From Caulobacteraceae bacterium (GTDB lineage: Bacteria; Pseudomonadota; Alphaproteobacteria; Caulobacterales; Caulobacteraceae), in NCBI GenBank assembly GCA_028290905.1, contig JAQGIW010000230.1, positions 1 through 42,823 of the forward strand: DNA of 42,823 nucleotides, read 5' to 3'. Positions 15,819-31,653 of the stretch are shown here, one piece after another (position 1 is the stretch's first letter; each line of letters begins with the position of its first letter). The notes under the pieces are model-generated. The model saw only the letters and a program-made list of their open reading frames with translations, did no database searches and was not told where the DNA came from. Position numbers and translations under genes: made by a program.

Positions 15819-16631
15819 ATGTCCCAAGCCCATGTTCACACGATCGGGCCTGTCGGCGAGCATATCCGCGCCTGGCGGCTCCGCCGGCGTCGCAGCCAGC
15901 TCGACCTGGCCTGCGAGGCGGAGATCTCCTGCCGCCACCTGAGCTTCATCGAGACCGGCCGCTCGGCGCCCAGCCGGGCGATGATCCTGCGCTTGGCCGA
16001 AGAGCTTGAGGTACCGCCGCGGGAGCGCAACGTACTGCTGACCGCCGCCGGTTTCGCGCCGATCTTCCCGGAACACTCGCTGAGCGACTCCGCGCTCGCC
16101 CGCGCCCGCGAGGCCATCGACCGCATCCTCACCAGCCAGGCGCCCTATCCGGCCTTTGCCCTCGACCGCCACTGGCAGGTCGTGTCGTCGAACGGCGCCT
16201 TACCCGAGCTTTACGAGGGCGTCGCCCCCCACCTGCTCGCCCCGCCGATCAATGTGATGCGCCTGAGCTTGCATCCCGAGGGTATGGCGCCGCGCATCCT
16301 CAACCACGCCGAGTGGCGCGATCATCTGCTGATGCGCCTGCGCCGGCAGGTCGAACTGACCGCAGACCCGGCCGTCATCGCGCTCCTTGACGAGGTCTCG
16401 GCCTATCCCCGGCCCGCATCGAGCAAGGCCGTGCGCCTGGCGCCCGATCCCGGCGCCGTCGCCGTGCCGCTGAGGCTCGCCTCGCCTCTGGGCGAGTTGT
16501 CGTTCGTCAGCACCACCACGGTGTTCGGCACGCCGATCGACATCACCCTGTCGGAACTGATGCTGGAACTGTTCTTCCCCGCCGACGCCGACACCGCCCG
16601 GATCATCGCCGAAGCCGGCTCATTTAAATAG
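15819..16631 (+). CDS. XRE-family transcriptional regulator with MmyB-like ligand domain
   Basis: A 270-residue DNA-binding protein. Residues about 8-70 are a Cro/CI helix-turn-helix (HIRAWRLRRRRSQLDLACEA, then ISCRHLSFIETGRSAPS). Residues about 95-265 match the MmyB-type PAS-like ligand-binding domain, with PYPAFALDRHWQVVSSNGAL and NVMRLSLHPEGMAPRILN. MmyB regulators in actinobacteria bind fatty-acid-like ligands, and proteobacterial members usually control an adjacent oxidoreductase or NTF2-like gene. No good ribosome site precedes the ATG. Its stop codon is the first part of operator A of the flavin monooxygenase gene, so the next unit begins directly at its end. Confidence 0.88.
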   Translation: MSQAHVHTIGPVGEHIRAWRLRRRRSQLDLACEAEISCRHLSFIETGRSAPSRAMILRLAEELEVPPRERNVLLTAAGFAPIFPEHSLSDSALARAREAIDRILTSQAPYPAFALDRHWQVVSSNGALPELYEGVAPHLLAPPINVMRLSLHPEGMAPRILNHAEWRDHLLMRLRRQVELTADPAVIALLDEVSAYPRPASSKAVRLAPDPGAVAVPLRLASPLGELSFVSTTTVFGTPIDITLSELMLELFFPADADTARIIAEAGSFK

Positions 16632-16645
16632 ACCGTTTCGGTCAA
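16629..16645. promoter_or_regulatory. Operator A: TAGACC-N5-GGTCAA palindrome before flavin monooxygenase
   Basis: The 17-bp site TAGACCGTTTCGGTCAA is one of five copies of the same palindrome in this window (20569, 20603, 23646 and 31637 are the others). A possible promoter uses TAGACC (16629-16634) as a weak -35 and TAAGAT (16652-16657) as -10 with 17-bp spacing, so a bound repressor would block polymerase. The site overlaps the stop codon of the XRE gene. The most likely binder is the TetR protein encoded at 30966 (inference). Confidence 0.65.
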
Positions 16646-16682
16646 GATAGGTAAGATCCTTGGCGTTCAAGGAGGTCCGCCA

Positions 16683-18185
16683 ATGTCCGATGGCTCAATG
16701 TCCGGGGGATTCGACACCGACGTCCTCATCGTCGGCGCCGGCCCCGCAGGTCTGGTGCTGGCGTGCGAGCTGGCCCGCCGGGGCGTCGGTTTTCGTCTGG
16801 TCGAACAGCGCGGCGAGGCGCTCAGGGCCTCGCGCGGCAAGGGGGTGCAGCCGAGGACGCTGGAGATATTCGAGGACCTGGGGGTCCTCGACGCGTTCCA
16901 TGCCGTGAGCGGGGCCTACCCGCCCTTGCGCATGATGCGGGGGGAGACGGTTGTCGGCGAGCGTCCCTTCAATGTTCAGGTCGAGCCGACCGATGACATC
17001 CCCTATCCGAACATGATCATGTCCCCGCAGTGGCGGACGGATGAGGTGTTGCGCGGTCGGCTCACCGCGCTCGGCGGCCATGTGGAATACGGAACGGCGC
17101 TCTCGTCCTTTTCGCAGGACGACGCCGCCGTCACCGCCCAGCTCGACGTCTCAGGTGTCCTCCAGAGCGTGAGGTCCCGCTACCTGGTGGGCGCCGACGG
17201 CGGCCGGAGCTCGGTGAGAAGTGGGCTGGGCCTCGCCTTCGCCGGCGAGGCGCTGGACCAGCCGCGAATGCTCATCGGCGATCTCAGTGTCGACGGCCTC
17301 GCAAGGGACGCCTGGTGGATGTGGCCGTCGGACCAGGGAATGGCGGGCCTCTGTCCCCTGCCGCACGTCGAGAGCTTTCAGATGATTATCGCGCTCGCGG
17401 ACTCCGAAGAGCCGGAACTGACAGAGGCCGCGGCCGCCAGCCTATTCCAGAGCCGCACCGGACGATCCGATCTGAAGCTTCACGATCCGACCTGGCTGTC
17501 GATCTTCACGCCCAGCCTGCGCCTGGCGGAAGCCTATCGGCGGGGCCGGGTGTTCATCGCGGGCGACGCCGCCCACGTGCATCCGCCCACAGGCGCCCAG
17601 GGCCTCAACACCAGCGTCCAGGACGCCTACAATCTCGGCTGGAAGCTGGCGCTGGTGCTCACGGGCGTGGCGGGCGAGAGGCTGCTGGCCACCTACGAGT
17701 CCGAACGCCGCCCGATCGCCGAGGCGGTGCTGCAGATCAGCAACGCCATCGCCCAACAGGGGGGCGGCGCGGGGCCGCGGGGACGGCAGACCCAGCAGCT
17801 CGACATCAACTACAGATCTTCCGTCCTCTCATTGGAACGCGGGCGGCCGGATCGCGCTCTCGTCGCCGGCGACCGCGCCCCGGACGCCGTCTACTTCGGT
17901 GATCATGGCCGGCGGCGGCGGCTCTTCGAGACTTTTCGCGGTCCGCATTTCACGCTCCTGGCGTTCGGCGACGTGGACGTCCGGGCGCCGACGACGGGTC
18001 CGGAGCTCAAGGTCGAACGCCTGGCTACCGACGGCCAGCCCGCGCTCACCTACGGGATCAGCGGTCCGGCGATCGTCCTCGTCAGGCCCGACAACTACAT
18101 CGGCCTTATCGACGAGAACCCCGCCCCCTCCGCCGCGGCCGACTACCTCGCGGCCGCGCTCTCTACGACCCCGGTCGGGGCATGA
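16683..18185 (+). CDS. FAD-dependent aromatic-type monooxygenase (PheA/TfdB/MhpA class)
   Basis: A 500-residue group A flavoprotein hydroxylase that uses NAD(P)H and O2 to hydroxylate an aromatic or polyketide-like ring. The FAD-binding DVLIVGAGPAGLVLACELAR is at about residues 13-32. The DG motif GADGGRSSVR follows mid-protein, then the GD motif FIAGDAAHVHPPTGAQGLNT and QDAYNLGWKLA. The last hundred residues (DRAPDAVYFGDHG onward) match the thioredoxin-like C-terminal domain of phenol hydroxylase relatives. GGAGG lies seven bases upstream of the ATG. It is the first gene of the central island and is preceded by operator A. It ends 49 bases from the convergent TonB receptor. It probably performs an early oxidation step on the imported substrate (inference). 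Confidence 0.93.
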   Translation: MSDGSMSGGFDTDVLIVGAGPAGLVLACELARRGVGFRLVEQRGEALRASRGKGVQPRTLEIFEDLGVLDAFHAVSGAYPPLRMMRGETVVGERPFNVQVEPTDDIPYPNMIMSPQWRTDEVLRGRLTALGGHVEYGTALSSFSQDDAAVTAQLDVSGVLQSVRSRYLVGADGGRSSVRSGLGLAFAGEALDQPRMLIGDLSVDGLARDAWWMWPSDQGMAGLCPLPHVESFQMIIALADSEEPELTEAAAASLFQSRTGRSDLKLHDPTWLSIFTPSLRLAEAYRRGRVFIAGDAAHVHPPTGAQGLNTSVQDAYNLGWKLALVLTGVAGERLLATYESERRPIAEAVLQISNAIAQQGGGAGPRGRQTQQLDINYRSSVLSLERGRPDRALVAGDRAPDAVYFGDHGRRRRLFETFRGPHFTLLAFGDVDVRAPTTGPELKVERLATDGQPALTYGISGPAIVLVRPDNYIGLIDENPAPSAAADYLAAALSTTPVGA

Positions 18186-18212
18186 GCGAGCACGTTGTCA
18201 CGCTCGATGGCG

Positions 18213-18226
18213 GCGCGTCGACGCGC
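18213..18226. terminator. 14-bp palindrome between convergent genes
   Basis: GCGCGTCGACGCGC is a perfect palindrome in the 49-base gap between the convergent monooxygenase and TonB receptor genes. It could form a cruciform or a weak terminator hairpin; there is no U-tract. Confidence 0.35.
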
Positions 18227-18234
18227 GTCGGCGG

Positions 18235-20493
18235 CTAATAACGCGCGGTGAAATTGACCACCCATTGCCGCGGTCGATTGAGACTGGCGATGTTGTACGG
18301 AGCGCCTGTCTCCGACCGGTCCGCATAGAGCGTATTGAACCTCTCATCAAAGAGGTTCGAGACGTGCGCGCCGATCGTGAAGTGGGTCCCGATGTCGAGC
18401 GACACGCCGAGGTTGACGATCTGGTAGGGTCTTTGCACGGCGGTAAAGCCTTGAAACGGACAGGGCGGCGAGAGCGCGTTGCAGCCTGCCGCGGACCATT
18501 GGGCTTGGCCGACAAACCGCGAATCGACCCTGGCGTTCAGCACCAGCTTGTCACTCAGACGGTGTCGCCAATCGCCGGCCAGCGTGGCCTGATATTCGGG
18601 CGTGTTCGGTCCGGAGTGACCGTTTGTGTTCAGGGGGTTGTTGAACCCGTCGAGAACAACCGCGGGGCCAAAGGCCGCCCTCGTCACGCCGATGCCGCCC
18701 GACAAGCTGATTTCCGGCATCGGACGCGCGGCAAACTCCAATTCGAACCCGTAGTTCTTTGACGACCCCACATTTCCATTGAACGTGAAAATGCCCCCCG
18801 AAGCGCCAATTTTGCCAACCTCGAATATGCGATTGGTATAGTCAATGTAGAACCCCGCCGCGTTGAAGGTGAGGCGGTGGTCAAATAGCGATGTCTTCAC
18901 GCCCACTTCGTAACTCAGCGCATATTCGGTCTTGAAGGGTAAAACCTCATTCACGTTCTGATCGTCCGGATTGTCGGTGAGATCACCCTGTTCGTCTCCT
19001 CTCGCCACCGTGAAATACGCCATGACATCCTTTGAGAAGTGATAGTCTATCGAGCCCCTCGGCAACACTTCGGTTCCCCGTACAGTGTCCGAGCAATGCG
19101 TCACAGTCGGGGGTGTCTGGACACAGGTGAACGCCCCGTTCGTGACCTGACTGGCAATATCCGTCTCGCCGTTCTCGAAATGCCCAATTCTAAGGCCGCC
19201 TTCGAACGACCACTTGCCCAGATCATAAGTCGCATTGCCGAAAATGGCAAAGCTATGGTTGGTGTGCTTGTATGCGGTGAAAGTGTCCAGGAATGGCAAC
19301 GGTGTCACGCTGGCGGGGTCGCCAACAATCGCCGCGGCGCCGCCAGTCTGGATTTGAGTTGCGGTGCTGCCAATCTGCTGCACGAACGCGCCGACCAACC
19401 ATCTGAAGGGCGAGGTCCCGTTGGACGACAGTCGAACCTCCTCGCTCCAGACGCTTTTCCCGAAGTCCTGGGGATAGTTTATGAACAGCTTGCCTCCAAG
19501 CTCGGGTATGACAGGAAGTCCCCCCTTGTCCAGATTACCCACCGAAGTGGTTGCGGAGTGAAAATAGGACGAGATCGACATCAGTATTACATCGCCAAAA
19601 TCATGAGTGATCACAAGAGTGGGAGAATAGAGGAATCTCCTGAAGTGTGGGACGGTTCCATCGACACCGCCATTGTAGACGGATTGGTAGGTGTGGTCGT
19701 CTGGCGGCGTATAGTACAGATTCATATTCTCTGTGTCGAGATAATCCACCGAATAGTAAAATATAGCCTTCGTTCGCCCCGCGAGATACTCCAGCGTCAG
19801 TCGACCGCCATCCTCCTCTGATCCCGGGAGCTTTCTGTTGAAGATCGGGTCAAAGAGGTACCCGTCCGACTTGTCGCTGAAGGCGCTCAGCCGCGCGAGC
19901 AAATGCCCCGGAACGATGGGACCGGATATGACACCATCCACGGTCCGTTGATTGTAGGCGCCGTATTCGAACGAGAGCTCGCCCGTCGGTGTCTCGCTGG
20001 GGAGCTTCGTCACATATTTGATCGCGCCGCCGACGTTGCTGCCGCCAAACAGCGTGCCTTGCGGGCCCTTCAGGACCTCGATGCGATCGATGTCGTTCGG
20101 GCGCACCGATTGCCCGTCGAATTGCTGCACGTCGTTGACATAGAAACCGACGCCCTGCACGACTCCGAAAGTCCCCACGCCCCGTATCACCACGTCCGGC
20201 GTATTGTCCGCCCGTTGAACGATGTTGATGTTGGTGACCAGGGAATTGAAGTCATCCAGCGTTGTCAGGTGCGCGTCGGTGATTGTCCGCGAATCGATCG
20301 CCGTGATCGTTTCCGGTATGGATTGAACATTTTCCGCCTGCTTTCTGGCGGTGACGATGACCGCCTCGACCGCGGTCCCGGAATATTGCGGCGTGGACGC
20401 TTCCGCAGCGAATGCCGCGTGGCCGAGAGTCGTCGTGCCCAACAGCATGGCCAAGGCAGGCAGCCGTCGGCCGGCATTCCGCTGGATGATCAT
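18235..20493 (-). CDS. TonB-dependent outer-membrane receptor
   Basis: A 752-residue outer-membrane beta-barrel for TonB/ExbBD-powered uptake. A signal peptide ends near AAFAAEA (about residue 30), then comes the TonB-box/plug start VEAVIVTARKQAENVQSIPETIT. Plug motifs VVIRGVGTFGVVQGVGFYVN and DIDRIEVLKGPQGTLFG are typical of the IroN/FyuA-like receptors of alphaproteobacteria. The barrel ends in RPRQWVVNFTARY with the required C-terminal aromatic. ATG 20493 is chosen because GGGGAG stands just upstream; an ATG at 20505 and a TTG at 20511 are in frame. The gene is visibly less GC-rich than its neighbours. Operator B lies across its promoter. In this setting it probably imports a bulky organic substrate rather than a siderophore (inference). 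Confidence 0.95.
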   Translation of the reverse strand: MIIQRNAGRRLPALAMLLGTTTLGHAAFAAEASTPQYSGTAVEAVIVTARKQAENVQSIPETITAIDSRTITDAHLTTLDDFNSLVTNINIVQRADNTPDVVIRGVGTFGVVQGVGFYVNDVQQFDGQSVRPNDIDRIEVLKGPQGTLFGGSNVGGAIKYVTKLPSETPTGELSFEYGAYNQRTVDGVISGPIVPGHLLARLSAFSDKSDGYLFDPIFNRKLPGSEEDGGRLTLEYLAGRTKAIFYYSVDYLDTENMNLYYTPPDDHTYQSVYNGGVDGTVPHFRRFLYSPTLVITHDFGDVILMSISSYFHSATTSVGNLDKGGLPVIPELGGKLFINYPQDFGKSVWSEEVRLSSNGTSPFRWLVGAFVQQIGSTATQIQTGGAAAIVGDPASVTPLPFLDTFTAYKHTNHSFAIFGNATYDLGKWSFEGGLRIGHFENGETDIASQVTNGAFTCVQTPPTVTHCSDTVRGTEVLPRGSIDYHFSKDVMAYFTVARGDEQGDLTDNPDDQNVNEVLPFKTEYALSYEVGVKTSLFDHRLTFNAAGFYIDYTNRIFEVGKIGASGGIFTFNGNVGSSKNYGFELEFAARPMPEISLSGGIGVTRAAFGPAVVLDGFNNPLNTNGHSGPNTPEYQATLAGDWRHRLSDKLVLNARVDSRFVGQAQWSAAGCNALSPPCPFQGFTAVQRPYQIVNLGVSLDIGTHFTIGAHVSNLFDERFNTLYADRSETGAPYNIASLNRPRQWVVNFTARY

Positions 20494-20566: not shown

Positions 20567-20596
20567 AATAGACCACTTTGGTCAATATCGTGTCAA
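20567..20596 (-). promoter_or_regulatory. Promoter of the TonB receptor gene
   Basis: On the minus strand a consensus -35 TTGACA (20596-20591) is followed after 18 bp by TCTATT (20572-20567) as -10. Transcription would start about 65 bases upstream of the receptor ATG. Operator B covers the spacer and -10, a classic repression geometry. Confidence 0.6.
20569..20585. promoter_or_regulatory. Operator B: TAGACC-N5-GGTCAA palindrome in TonB receptor promoter
   Basis: TAGACCACTTTGGTCAA shares both half-sites with operator A. It covers the spacer and -10 region of the predicted leftward receptor promoter and lies 34 bp (about three helical turns) from operator C. This places it between two divergent transport genes. 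Confidence 0.68.
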
Positions 20597-20602
20597 GGCA
20601 AA

Positions 20603-20619
20603 TTGGCCGTTGCGGTCAA
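20603..20619. promoter_or_regulatory. Operator C: TTGGCC-N5-GGTCAA palindrome before DHA2-type MFS gene
   Basis: TTGGCCGTTGCGGTCAA differs from the consensus by one base in the left half-site. It is 27 bases upstream of the MFS start at 20646, immediately upstream of the -35 of the receptor promoter, and could control the rightward gene or act cooperatively with operator B. Confidence 0.6.
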
Positions 20620-20645: not shown

Positions 20646-22088
20646 ATGGGTCGATTCAGAATGGCTGTGGGGGCCGCAGCTGTGCCTCAATCGGCTGGCG
20701 GCGGGGGGTCCGGCGCGCGCCGCGTGGCGCTGATCGTCGCCGCCGCCTTTTTCATGCAGAACCTCGACGGCGTCATCATCAACACCTCTCTGCCCCAGAT
20801 GGCGAGCGTGTTCAGGGTGAGGCCCGCCGACCTCAACGTCGGGATCACGGCGTACATGCTGTCGACCGCCGCCTTTGTGCCGCTCAGCGGCTGGGTCGCG
20901 GATCGGCTGGGCGCCAGGCGCGTGTTTGCCGGCGCCATCGTGATCTTCACCCTGGCCTCGGTAGTTTGCGGTCTCTCGCAAAATCTGTGGGAATTCAGCG
21001 CCGCCCGCGTCGTGCAAGGTCTGGGCGGCGCGCTGATGACTCCGGTCGGCCGAATGGTCGTGCTGCGTAGCGCCGGAAAGGCCGATCTGCTGGCAGCGAC
21101 GGCGCTGCTCACCTGGCCCGCCTTGATCGCGCCGGTGATCGGACCGGTGCTGGGAGGCTTCATCACCACCTATGTCTCCTGGCGCTGGAACTTCCTGCTG
21201 AATGCGCCGCTCGGGGCCGTGGGCGTCGCCTTGGTGCTCGCCTTCGTGCCGAACAGCAGCCTTGCGGCAAGGACCCGGTTCGATCTGCCGGGCTTCGCGC
21301 TGACCTCGGCGGCGCTGGTGGCGATCCTCCTGGGTCTGGAAGGCATGACCGGACCGCACTGGGCCTGGGCCGGTCTGGCGGTGCTCGCCGGCCTTGGCCT
21401 TGGCGCCGCCGCGGTGCGCCACCTGAGCCGGCGTGAAGGTCCGCTGCTGGATCTATCGCCGTTGAAGGTGCCGACCTTCACCATCTCGACGGTGGATGCG
21501 GGCAATCTGTTTCGCCTGACGATCAGCGCCACGCCATTCCTGCTGCCGCTGATGTTCCAGGTGGCGTTCGGCCTGACGGCGTGGGCGGCGGGGCTCTATG
21601 TCCTCGCCTATTTCGCCGGAAACCTGCTGATGAAGACGGTGACCACGCCGGCGCTGCGGCGGTTCGGTTTTCGCAACGTGCTGGTCGGCAACGGCGTGCT
21701 TGCGGGCGCCGCGATCCTGGCGTGCGCCGCCCTCACCCCCACGACACCGGTCGTTGTCGTGGTCATCGTGCTGCTGGCCGCGGGCCTGACCCGCTCGATG
21801 CAGTTCACGGCGCTGGCGACGCTGACCTTCGCCGATATCGAGCCTCCCCTTCGGGGTTCCTCGTCGACCTTGTCCAGCATGCTGCAACAGCTCTCGATAG
21901 GCCTCGGCATCGCCCTCGCCGCTGTCCTGATCAATGTCTCCCAGAATCTCAGGGGCGCCGACCGGCTGGCGCTCCCCGACTTTCGGCTGGCCTTCATCGT
22001 GGTCGGCCTGATCGCCGTGGCGGCGAGCGCGCTGTTCCTGCGCCTGGACGCCGACGCCGGCGCGGAGGTGAGCGGCCATCGACCCTAA
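20646..22088 (+). CDS. MFS transporter, DHA2-like (14-TM type)
   Basis: A 480-residue major facilitator protein of the inner membrane. It shows NLDGVIINTSLPQMASVF in helix 1, GWVADRLGARRVFAGAIVIF (motif A), RVVQGLGGALMTPVGRMVVL, and the DHA2 feature TYVSWRWNFLLNAPLGAVG. ATG 20646 is chosen; a TTG at 20610 in frame lies inside operator C, and ATG 20661 is also possible. No strong ribosome site is seen. It is divergent from the TonB receptor with operators B and C between them. In a catabolic setting such a protein may import the substrate across the inner membrane or export a toxic intermediate; direction cannot be read from sequence. Confidence 0.92.
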   Translation: MGRFRMAVGAAAVPQSAGGGGSGARRVALIVAAAFFMQNLDGVIINTSLPQMASVFRVRPADLNVGITAYMLSTAAFVPLSGWVADRLGARRVFAGAIVIFTLASVVCGLSQNLWEFSAARVVQGLGGALMTPVGRMVVLRSAGKADLLAATALLTWPALIAPVIGPVLGGFITTYVSWRWNFLLNAPLGAVGVALVLAFVPNSSLAARTRFDLPGFALTSAALVAILLGLEGMTGPHWAWAGLAVLAGLGLGAAAVRHLSRREGPLLDLSPLKVPTFTISTVDAGNLFRLTISATPFLLPLMFQVAFGLTAWAAGLYVLAYFAGNLLMKTVTTPALRRFGFRNVLVGNGVLAGAAILACAALTPTTPVVVVVIVLLAAGLTRSMQFTALATLTFADIEPPLRGSSSTLSSMLQQLSIGLGIALAAVLINVSQNLRGADRLALPDFRLAFIVVGLIAVAASALFLRLDADAGAEVSGHRP

Positions 22089-22121: not shown

Positions 22122-23504
22122 TCAGGGTGCCGTGACGATGTTCCGGGAGACCTCTGGATCGTTCTGCATGGTTTGGTGTGCGCTGGCGGTGATCCTGAAC
22201 GGGCGCCGGGTCCAGCTCAGCGTCAAGGCCGCGAGGGTGCAGACGACGCCCCCGACGATGCCGAACGACAGGTGAAGCTTGGCCTCATCGTGAAACACGA
22301 AATCGGTCAGAAGGGCGACCGTGGTCGCGGCGAAACCGCCGCCGATGAAGTTGGTGAAGAACACGTAGACGGCTGTCGCCTGCCCGCGCATGGCGTTGGG
22401 CATGATCTCCTGCAGCGCGCCTGGTGCGAGCGGCAGACTGAACGCGGCGAAGAACGTCAGAGAGCCGAGTTCCGCGACGATCAGACCCGGCGCCGGATCG
22501 AGCGCGATCATGGCGCAGGCCAGAACGCACATGCCGGCGGCGGCGATGCTGACAAGCAGTTTGCCGTCTGTTCGGCCGCGGCGTGCGAGCGCGTCGGCGA
22601 GAGTTCCCGCGGTTGCGGTTCCGAGTGGCCCCAGGATCAGGGTCATCAGACCGATCGTCAAGCCAACCCTGGGGATGCTCCAGCCCTCGGTGCGCACCAG
22701 CAGGGTCGGCACCCACGCGACGGCGGCCTGCCCCGAAAAGTTCTGCAGGCAGAAGCCGACGTTGTGACCGAACAGCGTCCGGGCGTGGGTCTTGTAATAC
22801 CGCGCCACGGCGGCCAGCGGGACGCCCCCCGTCGCCGCCCGTCGCCCGCCCTCTAGCCGCGGCGGCTCGGGGATCATCCTCGTGAGCGGCGCGACGATGA
22901 GGCCCAGCGAGCCGACCAGGATCAGGATGACCTGCCAGGAGTGGAGCGGCCCTACCAGTGGAAGCGCGATTTTCCGATCGCCGAGGCTGTGCCAGAGGAA
23001 TCCCCCGAAGATCCCCGCGCTTGCGCCGCCGACGACCAGCCCAGCGTAGAAAAGACCCATCGCGAGGCCGCGGCGCCTGGGCGGGAAGTAATCCGCCAGC
23101 AGTGACACGCCCGCAGGCGTCACCGAGGCCTCACCGGCGCCGAGGCCGACCCGAGCCAGGAACAGTTGCCAGAAATTGGCGGCCAGGCCGCAGCTCGCCG
23201 CGGCGACGCTCCAGACGGCAACGCCCAGCGCGGCGATCGTCCTGCGTCGCCCGCCGTCGATCCACCTCGCCACCGGCAGGCCGAACAGCGCGTTGAAGGC
23301 CGCGAAGGCAAAGCCAAGCAGCAGGCTGATCTGCGTATCAGTCAGGTGAAGATCCCTTTTGATCGGCGTGACAAACAGGCCGATAATCCCTCGATCCATA
23401 AAGGCCAGCGTGCTCCCCAAGAATAGAACGAAGCACGCGAACCAGGCTTGCGCGGGAGGGGGGTATAGTTTGTCGTCGTTTTCCGCGCCGGCATATGTCG
23501 ACAT
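22122..23504 (-). CDS. MFS transporter (12-TM, Spinster/anion-cation symporter-like)
   Basis: A 460-residue inner-membrane symporter-type protein. Helix 1 has STLAFMDRGIIGLFVTPIK, followed by LTDTQISLLLGFAFAAFNAL, GLPVARWIDGGRRRTIAALG (motif A), and GLGAGEASVTPAGVSLLADY. The last is a strong hallmark of the Spinster-like/hexuronate-carboxylate group common in sphingomonad and Caulobacter catabolic clusters. The last 60 residues form the final hydrophobic segments and a polar tail. The ATG at 23504 has GGGAGGG about 11 bases upstream, a long spacing. It is convergent with the other MFS gene (33-base gap) and divergent from the GMC oxidoreductase, sharing the region with operator D. It probably takes up an organic acid or alcohol of the pathway (inference). 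Confidence 0.92.
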   Translation of the reverse strand: MSTYAGAENDDKLYPPPAQAWFACFVLFLGSTLAFMDRGIIGLFVTPIKRDLHLTDTQISLLLGFAFAAFNALFGLPVARWIDGGRRRTIAALGVAVWSVAAASCGLAANFWQLFLARVGLGAGEASVTPAGVSLLADYFPPRRRGLAMGLFYAGLVVGGASAGIFGGFLWHSLGDRKIALPLVGPLHSWQVILILVGSLGLIVAPLTRMIPEPPRLEGGRRAATGGVPLAAVARYYKTHARTLFGHNVGFCLQNFSGQAAVAWVPTLLVRTEGWSIPRVGLTIGLMTLILGPLGTATAGTLADALARRGRTDGKLLVSIAAAGMCVLACAMIALDPAPGLIVAELGSLTFFAAFSLPLAPGALQEIMPNAMRGQATAVYVFFTNFIGGGFAATTVALLTDFVFHDEAKLHLSFGIVGGVVCTLAALTLSWTRRPFRITASAHQTMQNDPEVSRNIVTAP

Positions 23505-23696: not shown

Positions 23697-25454
23697 TTGG
23701 GCGACGGTTTCGACTACATCATCGCCGGAGGCGGGACGGCGGGGTGCGTCCTCGCCAACCGACTCTCGGCGCAGTCGCGCAATAGGGTGCTGCTCATCGA
23801 AGCGGGCATCGACACCCCGCCGGGGCGGGTTCCAGCCGACATCCTCGACCCCTACCCCCTCTCCTACGGCAATCCGCGCTACCGCTGGGCGCTCAGCGGA
23901 CACGCGCTCACCGAGCACACCTCACCGCCGATCCCCCTGCTGCACGGACGGGTCATGGGGGGCGGGTCCTCGATCATGGGCATGATCATGCTGCGGGGAA
24001 CGCCCGACGACTACGACGGCTGGGCGGACCAGGGCGCGGAAGGATGGCGCTGGCGCGACGTCCTTCCCTATTTTCGGCGGCTGGAGCACGACCTGGATTT
24101 CGGTGGAGAGTTGCATGGGGCGGAAGGTCCGACGGAGATTCGCCGTCATCGAGCCGAGGACTGGCCGCCGCTCGCCAAGGCCGCGGGCGCCTACGCCGCC
24201 CGCGTGGGAACGCCGTTCGTCGCCGACATGAACGGGGACTTCGAGGACGGCTATGGCGCCTTGCCGATCGCCGGCCCGGCGACGCGCCGAGCCTCCAGCG
24301 CCATCTCCTATCTCACCCCCGACGTGCGCTCGCGCCCCAACCTCGAGATCCTGGCGGAAGCGACCGTGGCGGACCTGATCTTCGACGGCGCCAGGGTTGT
24401 CGGCGTGCGGGCCAGGGTCGGGGGCCAGATCCTCCCGTTCCATGCGTCAGAGACCATTCTCTCGATGGGAGCCCTGCTGACGCCGATGTTCCTGCTCAGG
24501 CGAGGATTGGGCGATCCCGTCCAGCTGTCGGCCGCCGGCGTCCCCGTGCGACTCGCCCGGCCGGGCGTCGGGGCGAACCTGCAGAACCATGCGAGCCTGC
24601 TGGTGCTCGCCCATCTGCGCCCCGCCGCCGTCCAGCGGAGACCCGCGCGCAACCACAACAACACGATATTCCGCTACACCTCAGGCGTCGGCGGCGTCGG
24701 CCAGTCGGACATGGCCCTGGCGCTCGGCAGCCGGGCCAGTTGGCACGCCATCGCCCGCCGGATGGCGCACATCAGCCCGCTGGTGATGGCGCCGGCCTCG
24801 CGCGGGCGCGTGAGGCTGCGGCCGACGAACGAGGCCAACTCAGACTGTACGATCGAATACAACCTGCTGGGCGATCCGCGAGACGAAGCCCGGCTCACCG
24901 ACGCCCTGTCTCGAATCGCGCTGTTGCTGGTCTCCCCCGAGGTCTCTCCGCTTCTGGGCGTTCCCGTCGGCGCCAGCCGCCTCGCCAACGCTGCCCGGTT
25001 CAGCCTGCGGACGCCCCTGAACGCCGTCCGCGCCCAGGGAATCGCGACGCTGCTCGATATCGTCCCCGGCCTCGGGGATCGGGTCGTTGGCGCGATCGGC
25101 GGTCCGGGCGGAGCGCTCGCCGAGTTGCTCTCCGACTCCGCGCGGCTGGCCGAATTCGTACGCGCGAACGTCTCGCCGGTCGCCCATCACTCCGGGACCT
25201 GCAGGATGGGATCGGCGGAAGACCCGATGTCGGTGGTCGATCCCCAGGGCCGCGTCCATGGCGTCGCCGGCCTGCGGATCGCCGACGCCTCGGTGATGCC
25301 GACCGTGCCACGCGGCAACACCAACCTGCCCACGCTCATGGTCGCCGAGAAGATCGCGGACCTGATCCTGGGACGCGGCGCTCCCGCCGACGAGACCATC
25401 CGAGCGCGCGCCGGGGAGCCCTTGCCTCCCGCGCCCATGGCCGACAACATCTAG
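23697..25454 (+). CDS. GMC-family FAD oxidoreductase (choline/alcohol dehydrogenase-like)
   Basis: A 585-residue glucose-methanol-choline oxidoreductase that oxidises an alcohol to an aldehyde or ketone. The FAD-binding DYIIAGGGTAGCVLANRLSA is at about residues 5-24. GMC signature 1 is near residue 85 (GRVMGGGSSIMGMIMLRGT), then DDYDGWADQGAEGW. The C-terminal active site is VAHHSGTCRMG with the catalytic histidine, then ADASVMPTVPRGNTNLPTLM with the second active-site residue (N). I take TTG 23697 as start: GGAGG lies six bases upstream and translation then begins just before the FAD motif. Longer in-frame starts would read through operator D. The gene is two bases upstream of the GntR regulator and so cotranscribed with it. 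Confidence 0.92.
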   Translation: MGDGFDYIIAGGGTAGCVLANRLSAQSRNRVLLIEAGIDTPPGRVPADILDPYPLSYGNPRYRWALSGHALTEHTSPPIPLLHGRVMGGGSSIMGMIMLRGTPDDYDGWADQGAEGWRWRDVLPYFRRLEHDLDFGGELHGAEGPTEIRRHRAEDWPPLAKAAGAYAARVGTPFVADMNGDFEDGYGALPIAGPATRRASSAISYLTPDVRSRPNLEILAEATVADLIFDGARVVGVRARVGGQILPFHASETILSMGALLTPMFLLRRGLGDPVQLSAAGVPVRLARPGVGANLQNHASLLVLAHLRPAAVQRRPARNHNNTIFRYTSGVGGVGQSDMALALGSRASWHAIARRMAHISPLVMAPASRGRVRLRPTNEANSDCTIEYNLLGDPRDEARLTDALSRIALLLVSPEVSPLLGVPVGASRLANAARFSLRTPLNAVRAQGIATLLDIVPGLGDRVVGAIGGPGGALAELLSDSARLAEFVRANVSPVAHHSGTCRMGSAEDPMSVVDPQGRVHGVAGLRIADASVMPTVPRGNTNLPTLMVAEKIADLILGRGAPADETIRARAGEPLPPAPMADNI

Positions 25455-25456
25455 AC

Positions 25457-26131
25457 ATGGCGCCAGACACCGTTCTCCTCGCCCGCCTGGAAGAGTGTGT
25501 CGCGCGGGAAGCCTCGCCCAGGACGGGTCGCCTCCCCTCGGAGAGATCGCTTGCCCAGAGCCTCGGGGTCGGCAGGGCCGAGCTGCGCAAGGCGCTCGGC
25601 GTTCTCGAAGGCCAGGGACGCATCCGGCGTCATGTCGGCAGAGGCACGTTCCTGACAGGGATGCGAGAAACCGCGCACGAGATCGCCGACCGCGTCAGCC
25701 TCAAGACCAGTCCCGCGGCGGCCATGGAGGCGCGGCTTCTCATTGAACCCGGACTGGTGAGCCTGGCCGCCGAAAAGGCGACACCCGAGCAGATCATCGA
25801 GCTTCGCCGGCTCTGCGCGGAGATGAGGGCGGTCGACAGCTGGGACGCCTATGCCGAACTCGACTGGCGCTTCCACAACATGATCGCCGCGGCGACCGGC
25901 AACATCCTTCTCACCGAGATCCAGCAACTGCTCAACCAGGTCCGCCGCAACGTCGTCTGGGACGATCTGGACACCCCGCCGCCCCGGCCCCGGCCCGACT
26001 ACCATTCCTTCGCCGAGCACGAGGCGATCGTCGCCGGGATCGCCAGCCGAGATCCGCGCATCGCCGCCGCGGCGATGCGCCGGCACTTGGAAGCCACCCG
26101 CGACCGGTTGCTGAACAAGCCGTACGATTAG
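25457..26131 (+). CDS. GntR-family regulator, FadR/FCD subfamily
   Basis: A 224-residue transcription factor. The winged helix occupies residues about 1-70 (GRLPSERSLAQSLGVGRAEL, then RKALGVLEGQGRIRRHVGRG). The C-terminal all-helical FCD domain has MEARLLIEPGLVSLAAEKA and metal-ligand-type residues in LDWRFHNMIAAATGN, HSFAEHEAIVAGI and MRRHLEATR. FCD regulators respond to organic acids and metabolic intermediates and usually repress adjacent operons. It follows the GMC gene by two bases. A palindrome begins six bases after its stop codon in the gap before the Zn-dehydrogenase operon, the natural target region. It is the second regulator of the island, next to the TetR protein. Confidence 0.92.
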   Translation: MAPDTVLLARLEECVAREASPRTGRLPSERSLAQSLGVGRAELRKALGVLEGQGRIRRHVGRGTFLTGMRETAHEIADRVSLKTSPAAAMEARLLIEPGLVSLAAEKATPEQIIELRRLCAEMRAVDSWDAYAELDWRFHNMIAAATGNILLTEIQQLLNQVRRNVVWDDLDTPPPRPRPDYHSFAEHEAIVAGIASRDPRIAAAAMRRHLEATRDRLLNKPYD

Positions 26132-26210: not shown

Positions 26211-26235
26211 GCCTCTCAGTCCTGTAATAATGGTT

Positions 26236-26257
26236 GGATTGGTTCGGGATTGGTTCG
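26236..26257. repeat. Two tandem 11-bp units GGATTGGTTCG before dehydrogenase start
   Basis: GGATTGGTTCG is repeated exactly, head to tail, ending directly at ATG 26258. Each unit contains ATTGGTT, the half-site of the palindrome at 26137. The 11-bp period puts both on one face of the helix. They may be extra half-sites of the GntR regulator, or the start of translation may be further downstream (26285). Confidence 0.55.
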
Positions 26258-27403
26258 ATGGCCACACACACCCCCCTAAGGCAGATGGCGGCGCCCCCGC
26301 GCGACACGATCACGCCGGCGACCATGCGGGCATGGGTTCTGAACAATCCAGATGAACTCGAGCTCGTCACGAAGCCGGCGCCGCGCCCTGGGAACGCCGA
26401 GGTTCTCGTCCGCATCGACGCCGTGGCCGTCTGCGCCACGGACCTGGAGGTGATCAGCCAGGGACCGCCCGCCCTGATCAACGGCGGTCCGCCCTTCAAC
26501 CAGGCTTTCACGCCGGGCCATGAGTATATGGGCACGGTGGTGGGCCTGGGCCCCAATGTCGACGAATACCAGGTCGGCGACCGGGTCACGGTCGAGATTC
26601 ACGCCGGCTGCGGACGATGCAAGCGCTGCCGGGAAGGCATGTACACGGCCTGCCACAACTATGGGGCCAACTACCCCGGCAACGACAAGGGCCACCGGGC
26701 CAACGGCTTCACGACCAACGGAGGCTTCGCCCAGTACGCCGTCAACCACATCAACACCCTCGTGCGCGTTCCGGACTCGATGACCGACGAAGAGGCGGCC
26801 CTCGTGGTTACGGCGGGGACCTCGATGTACGGCTTCACCGAACTCGGCGGCCTGGTGGCCGGCGAGTCGGTGGTGGTCATCGGACCAGGGCCGATCGGAC
26901 TGCTGGGGGCGGCCATTGCCAAGACCCTCGGGGCGAACCCGGTCATTCTGACGGGGACCCGCCCGGATCGGCTCGCCATCGGCGCCAGGCTGGGCGCCGA
27001 TTTCATCATCGATTCCACCGCGGAAGATCCCGTCGAGGCGGTCATGCGCCTCACGGGCAAGGGCGCCGACTATGTGCTCGACTGCGCCGGCACCGAGGAA
27101 TCGGTGAACCAAGCGATCAGGATGACCAACCGGGGCGGCAGGATCTGCCTGGCGGCCTTTCCGCACGGCCCGGTGAAGATCGACCTGGCCTACGCCGTCC
27201 AGAACAACATCTACCTCTATGGCATCCGGGGCGAGGGCCGCAGCGCTACGCACCGCGCGCTGGCCTTGATGGCGGCAAAGCGGTTCGACCCGACCCTGAT
27301 CCACACCCACACCTTCGGCCTGGACGACCTGCCGGAGGCGCTGCGCCACGCGCGCGACCGCGTGGACGGCGCGATCAAGGTCGTCGTCAAGCCCCAACAG
27401 TAG
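26258..27403 (+). CDS. Zinc-dependent alcohol dehydrogenase (MDR superfamily, threonine/sorbitol dehydrogenase-like)
   Basis: A 381-residue NAD(P)-dependent dehydrogenase that oxidises a secondary or primary alcohol. The catalytic zinc site uses the Cys of AVCATD and the His-Glu of TPGHEYMGTV. The structural zinc site is CGRCKRCREGMYTAC with four cysteines. The Rossmann segment VVVIGPGPIGLLGAAIAKTL is near residue 210. Start choice is open: ATG 26258 abuts the tandem repeat and has no ribosome site; ATG 26285 has TAAGG four bases upstream; ATG 26324 would start just before the conserved MRAWVLNN. The gene begins a unit that continues with the cupin, aldolase and malate synthase-like genes. 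The product probably feeds a carbonyl intermediate to the aldolase (inference). Confidence 0.9.
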   Translation: MATHTPLRQMAAPPRDTITPATMRAWVLNNPDELELVTKPAPRPGNAEVLVRIDAVAVCATDLEVISQGPPALINGGPPFNQAFTPGHEYMGTVVGLGPNVDEYQVGDRVTVEIHAGCGRCKRCREGMYTACHNYGANYPGNDKGHRANGFTTNGGFAQYAVNHINTLVRVPDSMTDEEAALVVTAGTSMYGFTELGGLVAGESVVVIGPGPIGLLGAAIAKTLGANPVILTGTRPDRLAIGARLGADFIIDSTAEDPVEAVMRLTGKGADYVLDCAGTEESVNQAIRMTNRGGRICLAAFPHGPVKIDLAYAVQNNIYLYGIRGEGRSATHRALALMAAKRFDPTLIHTHTFGLDDLPEALRHARDRVDGAIKVVVKPQQ

Positions 27404-27421
27404 GCCGGAGGTCCGTCAGCC

Positions 27422-27907
27422 ATGCGCCACGAGATCGTCGAGATAGCCCCTGCGGGACCCGCGGCCGACCCGCGCCGGCATTGGCCGCAGCGCCTGCGCG
27501 ATGAATTCGAGCGCAACCAGTTCAGCGGCGCGGTCGGCAGCGTCCTGGTCTCCGAGACCGAACGCGTGCGCGTCTGGCACCTCGCCCTGCCACCCGGCGG
27601 CTGGCTCACGTTTCATCGGCATGTGCTCGACTATTTCTGGACCACCCCGACGGCCGGCGTGGCGCGCGGCTACTACGAGGACGGGCGGATCGTCGACGTC
27701 CACCACTACCCGGGCGAGACGCGGCACTTCCATCATGGGCTCGGCGAATACTTCGTTCACGCGGTCGAGAACGTCGGCGACACCGATCTCGTCTTCGTCA
27801 CGGTGGAGTTCCTGCAGGGCGACAACCCGCCGATCCCGCTTGCCGACACGGTGGGGCTCGACGCCAGCCCACGTCTCGAACGGGCCGATGCGGAGGCGAT
27901 CGGATGA
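27422..27907 (+). CDS. Cupin-fold small protein
   Basis: A 161-residue protein that reads as a single cupin barrel. VRVWHLALPPGGWLTFHRHV has the G(X)5HxH motif-1 histidines, and HHYPGETRHFHHGLGEYFVH gives further histidines. AVENVGDTDLVFVTVEF is the second cupin motif region. Such proteins bind a metal and act as isomerases, dioxygenases or sugar-acid-processing enzymes; no specific family could be named. GGAGGT lies eight bases upstream of the ATG. The stop overlaps the next start as ATGA, so it is coupled to the DapA-type aldolase. It may handle an unstable intermediate of the same pathway (inference). Confidence 0.75.
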   Translation: MRHEIVEIAPAGPAADPRRHWPQRLRDEFERNQFSGAVGSVLVSETERVRVWHLALPPGGWLTFHRHVLDYFWTTPTAGVARGYYEDGRIVDVHHYPGETRHFHHGLGEYFVHAVENVGDTDLVFVTVEFLQGDNPPIPLADTVGLDASPRLERADAEAIG

Positions 27908-28821
27908 GCAAGGCAATACGCGGGGTCGTCGCGGCGATCGCCACGCCCTTCCTGGAGACCGGCGAGCCTGACCTGCCAAGCCTGATCGCCAGGGCCGGCC
28001 GCTTGCTGGACGGCGGCTGCGACGGGCTGAACCTTCTCGGGACCACCGGCGAGGCCACGTCGCAGTCCGTCGAACAACGGATCGCTATCATGCAGGCGGT
28101 GGGCGGGTCGGGCCTGCCGCTCGAGCGGATGATCGTGGGCACGGGCGCGGCCGCGTTGCGGGATGCGGCGCGGCTGACCGGCGAGGCTGCGCGGATCGGA
28201 TTCTCGGCGGCGCTTCTCCTGCCGCCGTTCTACTACAAGCCGGTTTCCGACGAGGGGATGCTGCGCTTCGTCGAAACGATCGCGGAGGCGACGGCGTCGT
28301 CACCCATCCCCCTCTACCTGTACAACTTCCCGGCCCTGTCGGGCATTGCATACTCGCCGAAGCTGGTGGCGTTGCTGATCCGCCATCTCGGCTCCAGGAT
28401 CGCGGGCCTCAAGGATTCCTCGGGCGACGTCGCCTACGCCAGGGAAATCGCCGCCCTGTCTCCGTCCCTCGCGGTCTATCCCTCCAACGAGGCGATTCTG
28501 CTTTCCGCGAGAGCGGGCGGACCGTTCGCCGGCTGCATCTCCGCGACCGCGAACCTGAACGCGGCGGACTGCGCCCTCGCCTACCACCGCGGTGACGAGG
28601 CCGCTCTCGAGCGCGCGATCCGCCTGCGCGCCATATTCGATGGGCTTCCCCTCGTGCCGGGGATCAAGGCGATGATCGCGCGCCTGGAAAACGACGCCGC
28701 ACACGCGCGGACGCTGCCGCCGCTCGCGCCGCTGGAGGCCGAGCAACTCGACCTGCTCCTGAGCCGCTACGCCGCGCCTAATGGACGGGAGGGGGCCCTG
28801 CAAAATGCGCGCCGCGCCTGA
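27904..28821 (+). CDS. DapA/NAL-superfamily class I aldolase
   Basis: A 305-residue TIM-barrel Schiff-base lyase. The GTTGEA segment near residue 40 binds the keto-acid carboxylate. LYLYNFPALSGI carries the catalytic tyrosine and IAGLKDSSGD the Schiff-base lysine. YNxPALSG is the N-acetylneuraminate-lyase type signature. The arginine that dihydrodipicolinate synthase has just after it is missing, so this is not a lysine-biosynthesis enzyme. A reversible cleavage of a 2-keto acid to pyruvate (or glyoxylate) and an aldehyde is most likely. It overlaps the cupin gene by four bases and the malate synthase-like gene by 17, so all three are tightly coupled. A natural reading is that it makes a keto acid or aldehyde that the next enzyme consumes (inference). 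Confidence 0.88.
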   Translation: MSKAIRGVVAAIATPFLETGEPDLPSLIARAGRLLDGGCDGLNLLGTTGEATSQSVEQRIAIMQAVGGSGLPLERMIVGTGAAALRDAARLTGEAARIGFSAALLLPPFYYKPVSDEGMLRFVETIAEATASSPIPLYLYNFPALSGIAYSPKLVALLIRHLGSRIAGLKDSSGDVAYAREIAALSPSLAVYPSNEAILLSARAGGPFAGCISATANLNAADCALAYHRGDEAALERAIRLRAIFDGLPLVPGIKAMIARLENDAAHARTLPPLAPLEAEQLDLLLSRYAAPNGREGALQNARRA

Positions 28822-30871
28822 CGCCATTCTGGATAGCGTCGTCACTTTCGGTCGCCCCCTCAGGGCGTTCATCGAGGATGAAGTCCTTCCGGGGCTATCG
28901 CTGAATCGCGCGCGGTTCTGGCGAGGCTTCGAGGATATCGTCAACGCCTTCACGCCCGTCAACGCGGCCCTTCTCTTGGAGCGTGATCGGCTCCAAGGTC
29001 TGATCCGCGCCCGGCAGTCGCGGCTGGGCGGGACGTCGTCGGTCGGGGACGAGATACGGTTTCTCCGCGAGATCGGATACCTCCATCCGCGTCCGCGACC
29101 CTTCCAGATCGAGACCGCCAACGTCGACCATGAATTGTGCTCGATGGCGGCGCCCCAGGTCATCGCGCCGATCGACAATGCGCGCGCCGCCCTGAACGCG
29201 GCGAACGCGCGCTGGGGCAGCCTGCGCGACACCCTCTACGGTTCCGACGTCATTCGATGCCGAAAGCTGGAGGGCTGCTACGATGTGGTGCGCGGCGATC
29301 ACGTCGCGGCGTGGTTGGAGACCTTCCTCGACCAGACCTTCCCCCTGGAGGGTGGAAGCCATGCCGAAGTCTCCCGCTATGGGGTCGAGGGCGGACAATT
29401 GACGACCGACCGGGGGCGGTTGCGCAGCCCCTGGCAATTCGCCGGTCGTTCGGGCGCGGCGGACGCCCCGCGGGGCATCCTCCTGCGCAACCATGGCCTC
29501 CACCTCGAACTCAAGATCGAGCCTGATCATCCGCTGGGCCGACGCCACAGAGCCGGCCTCGCCGACGTCGTGCTCGAGAGCGCCGCCTCGGCCATCCTGG
29601 ACTTCGACGATGGCGTCGTGGCCGTGGACGCCGAGGACAAGATCGCCCTCTATCGGAGCTGGCTCCGCCTGATGGCCGGCGCCCTGGGGGCTCCCGACCG
29701 CACCTACAGGGGAAGCAACGGCGCGCCTCTCGTGCTGAAGGGCAGGTCCCTGATGATCGCCCGGACCGTCGGTATGCTGATGAACACCCCACTGGTCCGG
29801 GTCGACGGCCGGCAGGCTCCGGAGGGAATCATCGACGCCGTTCTGATCGCCCTGATCGCCCTGCACGACGTTCGGGGGCTTCGGCGAAACAGCGTCGCGG
29901 GGTCCATTTACCTGGTCATGCCCAAGCTGCACGGCCCGCATGAGGCGGCGTTTACGGCCCGCCTGCTGGACGCCGTGGAGGACCTGCTCGAACTCGATCG
30001 CCATACGATCAAGATCGGGCTGATGGACGAGGAGCGGCGGACGGGCCTGAACCTCATGGCGGTGATCGCGCCGTTGCGCCGCCGCATCGTGCTCATCAGC
30101 ACCGGCCTCGCCAACCGCACCGGCGACGAGATCCATACGGCGATGGCTCTTGGGCCGGTCGTGCGCAAATCGGAGATCAACGCCGGCGCCTGGCGAACAG
30201 CCTATGAGGCCGTCAATGTCGACACCGGCCTCGCCTGCGGCTTCCCGGGACGTGGGCAGATCGGCAAGGGGATGTCGCCCAGGCCCGACCCGCTGTCCGG
30301 CGCGAGCACGACCTGGGCGCCGAGCCCGGCGGCCGCCACCCTGCACGCCCTGCACTACCATCGCGTGGCCGTGGCCGCGCGGCAGTCCGAGCTGATCGAT
30401 CGCGACACCGAAACGAGCGCCCTCTTCTCATTCCCGATCGCCGATCGGTCCCGGTTGAACGATGCCGACATAACGGCCGAACTCGACGGCAATCTCCAGG
30501 ACGTGCTCGGCTATGCCGCACGCTGGGTCGGTGAGGGTGTCGGTTGCTCCAAAGCCCCCGGCCCGGACGGAACCAGCCTGATGACCGATCGGGCAAGCTG
30601 CCGGGTCTCCAGCCAGATCCTCGCCAATTGGCTCCTTCACGGCGTGCTGACCGCGGAGAGGGTCACCGAGGCGCTGGACCGCATGGCGCCCGTCGTGGAC
30701 GAGCGGAACGCGTCCGACCCCGCCTACGTCCCCCTGGGAAAAGATCCCCGGTCGAGCCACGCCTTCAGGGCCGCTCGCGACCTCGTTCTGACCGGCGCAA
30801 TCGAGCCCGGCGGCTACCCCGACCGCGTCCTGCGGGCCGCCCGCCTTCAACACAAGGCCGGCGCGCCTTAG
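28805..30871 (+). CDS. Malate synthase G-like enzyme (divergent paralogue)
   Basis: A 688-residue relative of malate synthase G, which condenses acetyl-CoA with glyoxylate to malate; GlcB is usually about 720. Homology runs through the protein: RAALNAANARWGSLRDTLYG, GILLRNHGLHLEL, ILDFDDGVVAVDAEDK, GRSLMIARTVGMLM, KIGLMDEERRTGLN and NRTGDEIHTAM. The catalytic Arg (in MIARTVG), Mg ligands Glu (LMDEERRT) and Asp (RTGDEIH), and the general-base Asp (LMTDRAS, near residue 595) are kept. Odd points: the DCEDS pocket motif is DFDDG, so the glutamate is aspartate. After QIGKGM the conserved tryptophan and a stretch of about 15 residues are missing (SPRPDPLSGASTTWAPSP). Start 28805 overlaps the aldolase gene by 17 bases; ATG 28781 is also possible. 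The changed pocket suggests a different acceptor (inference). Confidence 0.85.
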   Translation: MRAAPDAILDSVVTFGRPLRAFIEDEVLPGLSLNRARFWRGFEDIVNAFTPVNAALLLERDRLQGLIRARQSRLGGTSSVGDEIRFLREIGYLHPRPRPFQIETANVDHELCSMAAPQVIAPIDNARAALNAANARWGSLRDTLYGSDVIRCRKLEGCYDVVRGDHVAAWLETFLDQTFPLEGGSHAEVSRYGVEGGQLTTDRGRLRSPWQFAGRSGAADAPRGILLRNHGLHLELKIEPDHPLGRRHRAGLADVVLESAASAILDFDDGVVAVDAEDKIALYRSWLRLMAGALGAPDRTYRGSNGAPLVLKGRSLMIARTVGMLMNTPLVRVDGRQAPEGIIDAVLIALIALHDVRGLRRNSVAGSIYLVMPKLHGPHEAAFTARLLDAVEDLLELDRHTIKIGLMDEERRTGLNLMAVIAPLRRRIVLISTGLANRTGDEIHTAMALGPVVRKSEINAGAWRTAYEAVNVDTGLACGFPGRGQIGKGMSPRPDPLSGASTTWAPSPAAATLHALHYHRVAVAARQSELIDRDTETSALFSFPIADRSRLNDADITAELDGNLQDVLGYAARWVGEGVGCSKAPGPDGTSLMTDRASCRVSSQILANWLLHGVLTAERVTEALDRMAPVVDERNASDPAYVPLGKDPRSSHAFRAARDLVLTGAIEPGGYPDRVLRAARLQHKAGAP

Positions 30872-30916
30872 CCCGCCCGCGCGGCGCCTTTCGATCCGAC
30901 CGATTTCCGTGCGAGG

Positions 30917-30931
30917 ATCACCACGCGTGAT
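30917..30931. promoter_or_regulatory. ATCAC-N5-GTGAT palindrome upstream of tetR
   Basis: ATCACCACGCGTGAT is a perfect 5+5 inverted repeat in the 94-base gap before the TetR gene. It does not match the TWGACC-N5-GGTCWA operators. It is a weak candidate for an additional control site. Confidence 0.2.
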
Positions 30932-30965
30932 TTGAGCGGTCGAAGTCGCGCGGAGGTGAGAGCAG

Positions 30966-31640
30966 ATGAGCGCGACGGGATCGACGCAACCCAAGCCTGC
31001 GCGCCGCCGGCAGCAGCAGCGGACCGTCGACACGCGATTGAAGATCATTCGCGCCGCCCTCTCAGAGTTCGCCCTGCTCGGCTTCGACGGCGCCAGCACG
31101 CGGGGCATCGCGGAGGCAGCCGAGGCGCCGCACTCCCTGGTCATCTATCACTTCCACACCAAGGACGAGCTCTGGTACGAGACCGTCAAGGAAGCCGTGC
31201 GCTGGTACGCGAGACGCAATTTCGGCGTCATCGGCCCGGTCAGGGACGGCGATCCCGTCCGCCGCCTGAAGCGCAATTTCGCCCACTACATTCGCTTCAG
31301 CGCCGAGTATCCGGATTTCTTCCGGATGCTGACCCACGAGAACACCCTGGCCTCGGAACGTCTCGCCTGGCTCGTCACCAACCACGTGGGTCCGATGGCG
31401 AACCATATGACCGAGCTGATCCGGCGGGCCCAGGCGCTCGGGGCGTTCGTCGAGGGCGACCCTTTGAGCCTGCTCTATCTGTTTCTGGGTTCGGCCACGA
31501 GCCTCTACCGGTCGGCGCGCGAAATCGAGCTGCTCACGGGCGAGGCGCCGAACACCGAACCGGCCATTCGACGGCACATCGAACTTATCGAGCGGCTGTT
31601 CTTTCGAACGCCAAGCCCTTCCCAAACCGAAAAATATTGA
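30966..31640 (+). CDS. TetR-family transcriptional regulator
   Basis: A 224-residue repressor-type protein. The N-terminal helix-turn-helix runs over about residues 22-68: TRLKIIRAALSEFALLGFDG, then ASTRGIAEAAEAPHSLVIYH, then FHTKDELW. The C-terminal ligand-binding domain has HYIRFSAEYPDFFRMLTHEN and LLYLFLGSATSLYRS. TetR proteins bind short palindromes as dimers and release them on ligand binding. GGAGGTGA is about six bases upstream of the ATG. The stop codon lies inside operator E. Five matching 17-bp palindromes occur at the starts of other units of the island (16629, 20569, 20603, 23646, 31637). I infer that this protein is their repressor and that the pathway substrate or an intermediate is the inducer. 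Confidence 0.93.
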   Translation: MSATGSTQPKPARRRQQQRTVDTRLKIIRAALSEFALLGFDGASTRGIAEAAEAPHSLVIYHFHTKDELWYETVKEAVRWYARRNFGVIGPVRDGDPVRRLKRNFAHYIRFSAEYPDFFRMLTHENTLASERLAWLVTNHVGPMANHMTELIRRAQALGAFVEGDPLSLLYLFLGSATSLYRSAREIELLTGEAPNTEPAIRRHIELIERLFFRTPSPSQTEKY

Positions 31641-31653
31641 CCACAATGGTCTA
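31637..31653. promoter_or_regulatory. Operator E: TTGACC-N5-GGTCTA palindrome before alpha/beta hydrolase operon
   Basis: TTGACCACAATGGTCTA overlaps the tetR stop codon and lies 31 bases upstream of the hydrolase ATG. TATAAA at 31652-31657 overlaps its right half and could serve as a -10. It is the same palindrome type as operators A-D. Confidence 0.68.

Follow-up and report, generated by a model that had tools for sequence, protein, structure and literature searches.

The window analysed here is a stretch of 42,823 nt on contig JAQGIW010000230.1 (GCA_028290905.1) of a Caulobacteraceae bacterium with a genome of 5.23 Mb, and it holds a gene cluster in which five copies of a 17-bp palindrome stand near the starts of genes for transport and metabolism. 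A first-pass annotation of this DNA had reported the five copies, with half-sites separated by exactly 5 bp, and all of them are indeed read at the places it gave. They are most probably operators of a TetR-family regulator encoded within the same cluster, and the evidence for this reading, along with that for its rivals, is the subject of this account.

The palindromes and the genes beside them

Site 1 (16629–16645, plus strand; TAGACC-GTTTC-GGTCAA) lies 37 bp before the start of a gene for a FAD-dependent aromatic-ring hydroxylase (FMO; 16683–18185, plus strand), which carries the FAD_binding_3 and Rng_hyd_C domains and has its relatives among aromatic and polyketide oxygenases. Sites 2 (20569–20585) and 3 (20603–20619), both assigned to the minus strand, are 34 bp apart and precede the gene for a TonB-dependent receptor (18235–20493, minus strand; the start at 20493 is inferred from a GGGGAG ribosome site). 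Site 2, the promoter-proximal one, is 75 bp from that start and covers a −10-like TCTATT, and site 3, a degenerate copy with the half-site TTGGCC, lies just upstream of a −35-like TTGACA and is also 26 bp before MFSa, a gene for a DHA2-type transporter (20646–22088, plus strand). Site 4 (23646–23662, plus strand; TTGACC-AACTC-GGTCAA) occupies the divergent region between MFSb, which encodes an MFS transporter similar to galactonate/aromatic acid symporters (22122–23504, minus strand), and the gene for a GMC oxidoreductase (23697–25454, plus strand), 34 bp before the start of the latter. Finally, site 5 (31637–31653, plus strand; TTGACC-ACAAT-GGTCTA) stands between the gene for the TetR-family regulator (30966–31640, plus strand) and that for an alpha/beta hydrolase (abH; 31685–32842, plus strand), 31 bp before abH.

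The first-pass annotation placed all five copies between genes, which needs some correction. The TAG of site 1 is the stop codon of a gene for an MmyB-like (MLTR) regulator of the XRE type (15819–16631, plus strand), and site 5 overlaps the stop codon of the TetR gene, whose end within the last palindrome had been correctly noted. Sites 3 and 4 fall within the longest mechanical open reading frames and are intergenic only if the downstream starts, at 20646 and 23697, are the real ones; the second of these is favoured by a GGAGG just upstream.

When the pattern TTGACC-N5-GGTCAA is applied to the window, site 4 is the single exact match and the other four palindromes differ from it by one mismatch each, so that at up to one mismatch the matches are the five palindromes and no more, while at up to three mismatches there are 24, against a mean of 10.98 in shuffled sequence. 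The exact form TWGACC-N5-GGTCWA is seen four times in the window, where 0.002 (order-1 Markov) to 0.014 occurrences (order-3 simulation, resting on only 2 matches in 6 Mb simulated) are expected. The spacing is strict, because across the window and 12 related loci the exact half-sites are paired 23 times at a spacer of 5 bp and never at any other spacer from 0 to 12 bp. The centre rule proposed in the first-pass annotation, R-M-A-R/W-Y, holds for four of the five copies and fails in the middle base of AACTC at 23646; its outer positions are more general, with R first and Y last in 31 of 32 collected sites. These 32 sites also have an A/T centre, and the symmetry continues into A/T-rich flanks, to about 25 bp in total. 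The collected sites include degenerate ones, and the R/Y ends, the A/T centre, and the A/T flanks all lay outside the pattern used for the search.

Over the whole genome the exact form occurs six times, with four of the matches inside a 15-kb stretch of the cluster, and the reversed control occurs three times. The confinement that a genome scan had been proposed to reveal is thus seen for the exact form, and not for one-mismatch forms, which number 51 against 51 for the reversed control; since these show no excess, site 3 is credible by its place and not by its sequence alone. Of the two exact matches outside the cluster, one is internal to the coding sequence of an MFS/BT1 protein (C234), and the other, TTGACC-AATTT-GGTCAA on another contig (L006:1501–1517), precedes a gene for a PhdYeFM-type antitoxin (C297) by 19 bp and is probably the operator of that system itself.

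Conservation of the sites and the proposed paired operators of the TonB receptor

Related clusters were found by scanning species genomes with a profile of the TetR protein, which gave five orthologues (in genomes G314–G318) with identities of 91% and 88% in two Phenylobacterium assemblies, 70% in a Caulobacter assembly, 63% in an uncultured member of the Caulobacterales, and 66% in Caulobacter sp. UNC279MFTsu5.1. Exact sites number 5, 8, 4, 2, and 1 in G314, G315, G316, G317, and G318, respectively, and 5/5, 7/8, 4/4, 2/2, and 1/1 of them are in the cluster; together with 4/6 in the window's own genome, 23 of 26 exact sites belong to the cluster. Besides the MFS/BT1 and PhdYeFM matches, G315 supplies the only other non-cluster site, which falls in a 2Fe-2S/FAD dehydrogenase region. 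The reversed control gives 18 matches over the same six genomes, and 59 other family genomes of the order sample, with no TetR match at E ≤ 1e-30, have 18 exact matches altogether.

The sites are kept upstream of the same genes, as the first-pass annotation had proposed to check. The FMO operator is identical at 17 of 17 positions in G314 (L099:202) and is present in G315, where it adjoins an aldehyde dehydrogenase gene and the MmyB-like gene is missing. The operator between MFSb and GMC is kept in G314, G315, G317 (with one mismatch, beside GMC), and G318 (L040, L093, L098, and L037), and the one between TetR and abH in G314, G315, and G316 (L040, L041, and L042). In G317 an operator stands before abH (L098) even though abH is there apart from TetR, and a weaker site, of 18.4 bits, follows the TetR gene (L043). 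The Phenylobacterium clusters have an extra site before the alcohol dehydrogenase gene (L040:7318, L041:699, and L093:3779), at a point where the window has a GntR gene and no site, and one site of G316 is away from the shared genes, 68 bp before an Abhydrolase_3 gene. When the intergenic stretches are aligned they have diverged and the operators remain as conserved blocks (L042 was misaligned in this comparison).

A matrix for which the five relatives supplied 19 exact sites, and the window none, scores the window's five sites at 38.7, 37.8, 36.9, 34.5, and 19.4 bits, the last value being that of site 3; no other position of the window reaches 4 bits. As background, 208 kb from 57 unrelated loci contain 23 positions of at least 4 bits and 8 of at least 8 bits, with a best score of 21.3 bits.

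Regarding the TonB receptor, a promoter TTGACA-N18-TCTATT is predicted on the minus strand at 20567–20596, and the same one is found in L040, L093, and L094. In these four loci the paired operators are 34 bp apart, the −35 element falls between them, and the −10 element is within the nearer one. The pair is spaced by 35 bp in L097 and by 32 bp in L037, where one site has three mismatches, and the TTGACA-N18-TCTATT promoter was not found at the pairs of these two loci; it is therefore clear in four of six loci, two of which (L093 and L094) come from one assembly. G315 carries the TonB/MFSb operator pair on both of these contigs and may be a strain mixture. The first-pass annotation assigned the sites to the heads of the FMO, TonB receptor, MFS, GMC, and abH units, and this assignment stands for all except MFS: because L040, L093, and L094 keep the pair without MFSa, site 3 is more likely the second, distal operator of the TonB-receptor promoter than an operator of MFSa, judging from these sequence comparisons. 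The search of the five related clusters did not find MFSa itself, which appears to have been inserted between MFSb and the TonB operators.

The candidate regulator and its rivals

The reading that we favour, with a probability of about 0.85, is that the palindromes are the operators of the local TetR-type repressor (30966–31640) and have a RutR-like half-site. The first-pass annotation had likewise proposed one TetR repressor acting over about 15 kb, and it had missed two further regulator genes in the stretch, namely the MmyB-like gene and one for a GntR/FCD regulator (25457–26131, plus strand). When the cluster stretches are searched with tblastn, TetR is found in six of six clusters, GntR/FCD in three, and MmyB-like in one, and for this reason TetR is the best candidate; the confinement of the sites to the cluster in all six genomes favours it as well. 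The GMC protein at E ≤ 1e-150 and the TetR protein at E ≤ 1e-60 pick out an identical set of six among 368 family genomes, and in an order sample of 299 genomes, the GMC search finds two genomes, which also hold the best TetR matches. The TetR gene is in none of 15 other genomes of the genus, which indicates that the island is accessory, and the loci of 30 TetR homologues of less than 40% identity have no site at up to one mismatch.

The protein has the properties expected of the family: it matches TetR_N at 34.1 bits (cut-off 24) and TetR_C_29, an all-helical C-terminal ligand domain, at 34.5 bits (cut-off 26.2). Its predicted model is nearly all-helical, with a mean pLDDT of 77.6 (the other four models are at 53.6–64.0), and matches TetR-family structures at Z scores of 14–17, many of them tied, with DarR and RutR among the first. 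The recognition-helix residues PHSLV-YHF are invariant across the six orthologues.

The nearest solved relative by sequence is RutR, the pyrimidine-utilisation repressor of E. coli (6z1b, E = 4.3e-9; 4x1e, E = 5.5e-9), and 4x1e is also a top fold match (Z 16.6, rmsd 4.4, 196 aligned residues), tied with DarR and others. RutR recognizes the half-site TTGACC/GGTCAA within a 16-bp operator with a 4-bp spacer, whereas the sites described here are 17 bp long with a spacer of 5 bp (23 exact at 5 and 0 at 4). The IR1 operator of QacR resembles the window sites in its A/T-rich flanks and its TAGACC/GGTCTA half-sites and differs from them in its longer spacer, in that two QacR dimers share a single palindrome, and in its partner genes. 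An identity with RutR is excluded: its model TIGR03613 is the best NCBIfam match, at 36.5 bits against a cut-off of 368, the identity to RutR is about 21%, the spacer is 5 bp and not 4, four of the five uracil contacts are replaced, and no rut genes are seen here. The contacts W77, Y97, W167, Q171, and Q179, as named in PMC10891134, correspond here to W80, N104, L174, T178, and E186, and W80, the sole match, is not kept in L043. That paper gives the RutR operator as a palindrome of approximately 16 bp, and one of its figure legends compares the RutR site with QacR IR1. In arrangement, there is a parallel with the local TetR regulons that are found in catabolic clusters, where the regulator gene is likewise part of the cluster and divergent units are preceded by several operators. 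Among the literature matches listed, none describes a regulon with this operator.

In the mechanism that we propose, a TetR dimer would bind TWGACC-R-N-W-N-Y-GGTCWA, over about 25 bp including the A/T flanks, and would sit beside or over the promoters of FMO, the TonB receptor, MFSb/GMC, and abH, holding them closed. The dimer would be released when a compound of the pathway, either its substrate or an intermediate, binds the C-terminal domain, and the genes for uptake and breakdown would be switched on together. Repression with release is the simplest reading because one operator lies over a −10 element and the sites are close to start codons. The same protein might bind the sites as an activator, and the distal TonB operator just upstream of the −35 element would suit this; we regard it as unlikely, since at the TonB promoter the −10 element lies under the proximal operator and the others are 26–37 bp before start codons, where a dimer would most simply block.

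The other two regulators were weighed as binders of the palindromes, and both are less probable than an activating TetR. The GntR/FCD protein is a DNA-binding regulator within the cluster, and the clusters of G316 and G318 encode orthologues of it (69% and 56%, respectively). The cluster stretches of G314, G315, and G317 carry 5, 7, and 2 exact sites, and the search of these stretches did not find it (their whole genomes were not searched). GntR sites of the FadR type have the half-sites reversed, GGTC..GACC, which also counts against it. We consider it improbable and reject it on its absence from three of six clusters, less firmly than the MmyB-like protein. The latter is recommended by adjacency, its stop codon lying in site 1, and MltR-type proteins have been modelled on two-fold symmetric DNA, according to PMC3406030. 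It is nevertheless missing at E ≤ 1e-20 from three of the five site-bearing genomes, and the remaining two have it on other contigs. No exact site and two one-mismatch matches occur in the 29 loci of its homologues, and G315 retains the FMO operator without it; on these grounds it is rejected, and its involvement is very unlikely. Least probable of all is an origin of the palindromes by chance or as neutral repeats: the parity of one-mismatch forms with the reversed control and the degeneracy of the fifth site speak for it, and against it stand the four exact forms, far above expectation, and the fact that five other genomes keep the sites ahead of the same genes. For four of the five sites conservation refutes a chance origin, and site 3 is the exception.

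Several points weigh against the TetR protein as the binder, or lessen the force of the evidence for it. The relatives were chosen through TetR, so its presence in six of six clusters is partly a result of selection, for which the GMC search is an independent check, and co-inheritance of the cluster could give the co-occurrence of gene and sites without binding. A site at up to one mismatch is within 1.5 kb of the TetR gene in only three of the five orthologues, and the matrix scan of the window found no operator upstream of the TetR gene itself. Sigma70-like promoters are clear only at the TonB sites, and 2 of 11 other stretches reached 9 of 12 matches. The core of the matrix is partly circular, as its sites were collected with a pattern derived from the window, and site 3, at 19.4 bits, scores below the best background match. 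Lastly, the G315 assembly is 89% complete with 7% contamination, and the two instances of the TonB/MFSb pair in it do not count as independent.

Gene content and meaning of the cluster

The remaining genes of the cluster, all on the plus strand, begin with the GntR/FCD gene, which lies between GMC and the alcohol dehydrogenase, where the Phenylobacterium relatives carry an operator, and which in G318 and G316 has moved next to the TonB receptor or MFSb. It is followed by genes for a zinc-binding alcohol dehydrogenase (26234–27403; the real start is probably further in), a conserved 161-aa protein (27422–27907), a DHDPS-family aldolase/lyase (27904–28821), and a malate synthase G-like protein (28781–30871) that scores above one NCBIfam cut-off and below another and was seen in the window and G318 clusters only. 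The 161-aa protein has no Pfam match and is found in four of the five relative genomes at 74–83% identity; we take it, by eye, to be cupin-like. After abH comes a lactonase-like amidohydrolase (Amidohydro_2; 32811–33677), which, like MFSb, GMC, TetR, and abH, is in six of six clusters. Downstream of the regulon lies 35851–37971, which has no operator; its product belongs to the penicillin-amidase family and is a relative of the acylase PvdQ (174.9 bits against a cut-off of 950). The segment 39553–41361 encodes a cyclic-nucleotide-binding domain fused to a thioredoxin-reductase-like domain. Upstream, coding frames for a P450, an SDR, and an acyl-CoA dehydrogenase were found.

The best solved relatives of the GMC protein are 5-hydroxymethylfurfural (HMF) oxidases, and together with the relatives of the hydroxylase they suggest that the substrate is an aromatic or furan compound. 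A sugar acid would also suit the DHDPS-type enzyme, the lactonase-like amidohydrolase, and the type of MFS transporter. More tentatively, and with less than even confidence, the cluster may be an undescribed catabolic pathway, comprising a TonB receptor, an MFS importer, a FAD hydroxylase, an HMF-oxidase-like GMC enzyme, a zinc dehydrogenase, a DHDPS-type aldolase, hydrolases, and sometimes malate synthase, under one TetR with a new 17-bp operator, in which the receptor would be shut by two dimers acting jointly on the pair 34–35 bp apart. If this were true, the MmyB-like and GntR/FCD regulators would have been recruited later, adding signals in certain lineages.

Local TetR regulons are a familiar class, and what is described here is an ordinary kind of gene control, well supported in this case. 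For an unstudied catabolic island found in 6 of the 368 genomes of the family that were sampled, the analysis names a likely regulator, together with the sequence of its probable operator and a list of targets.

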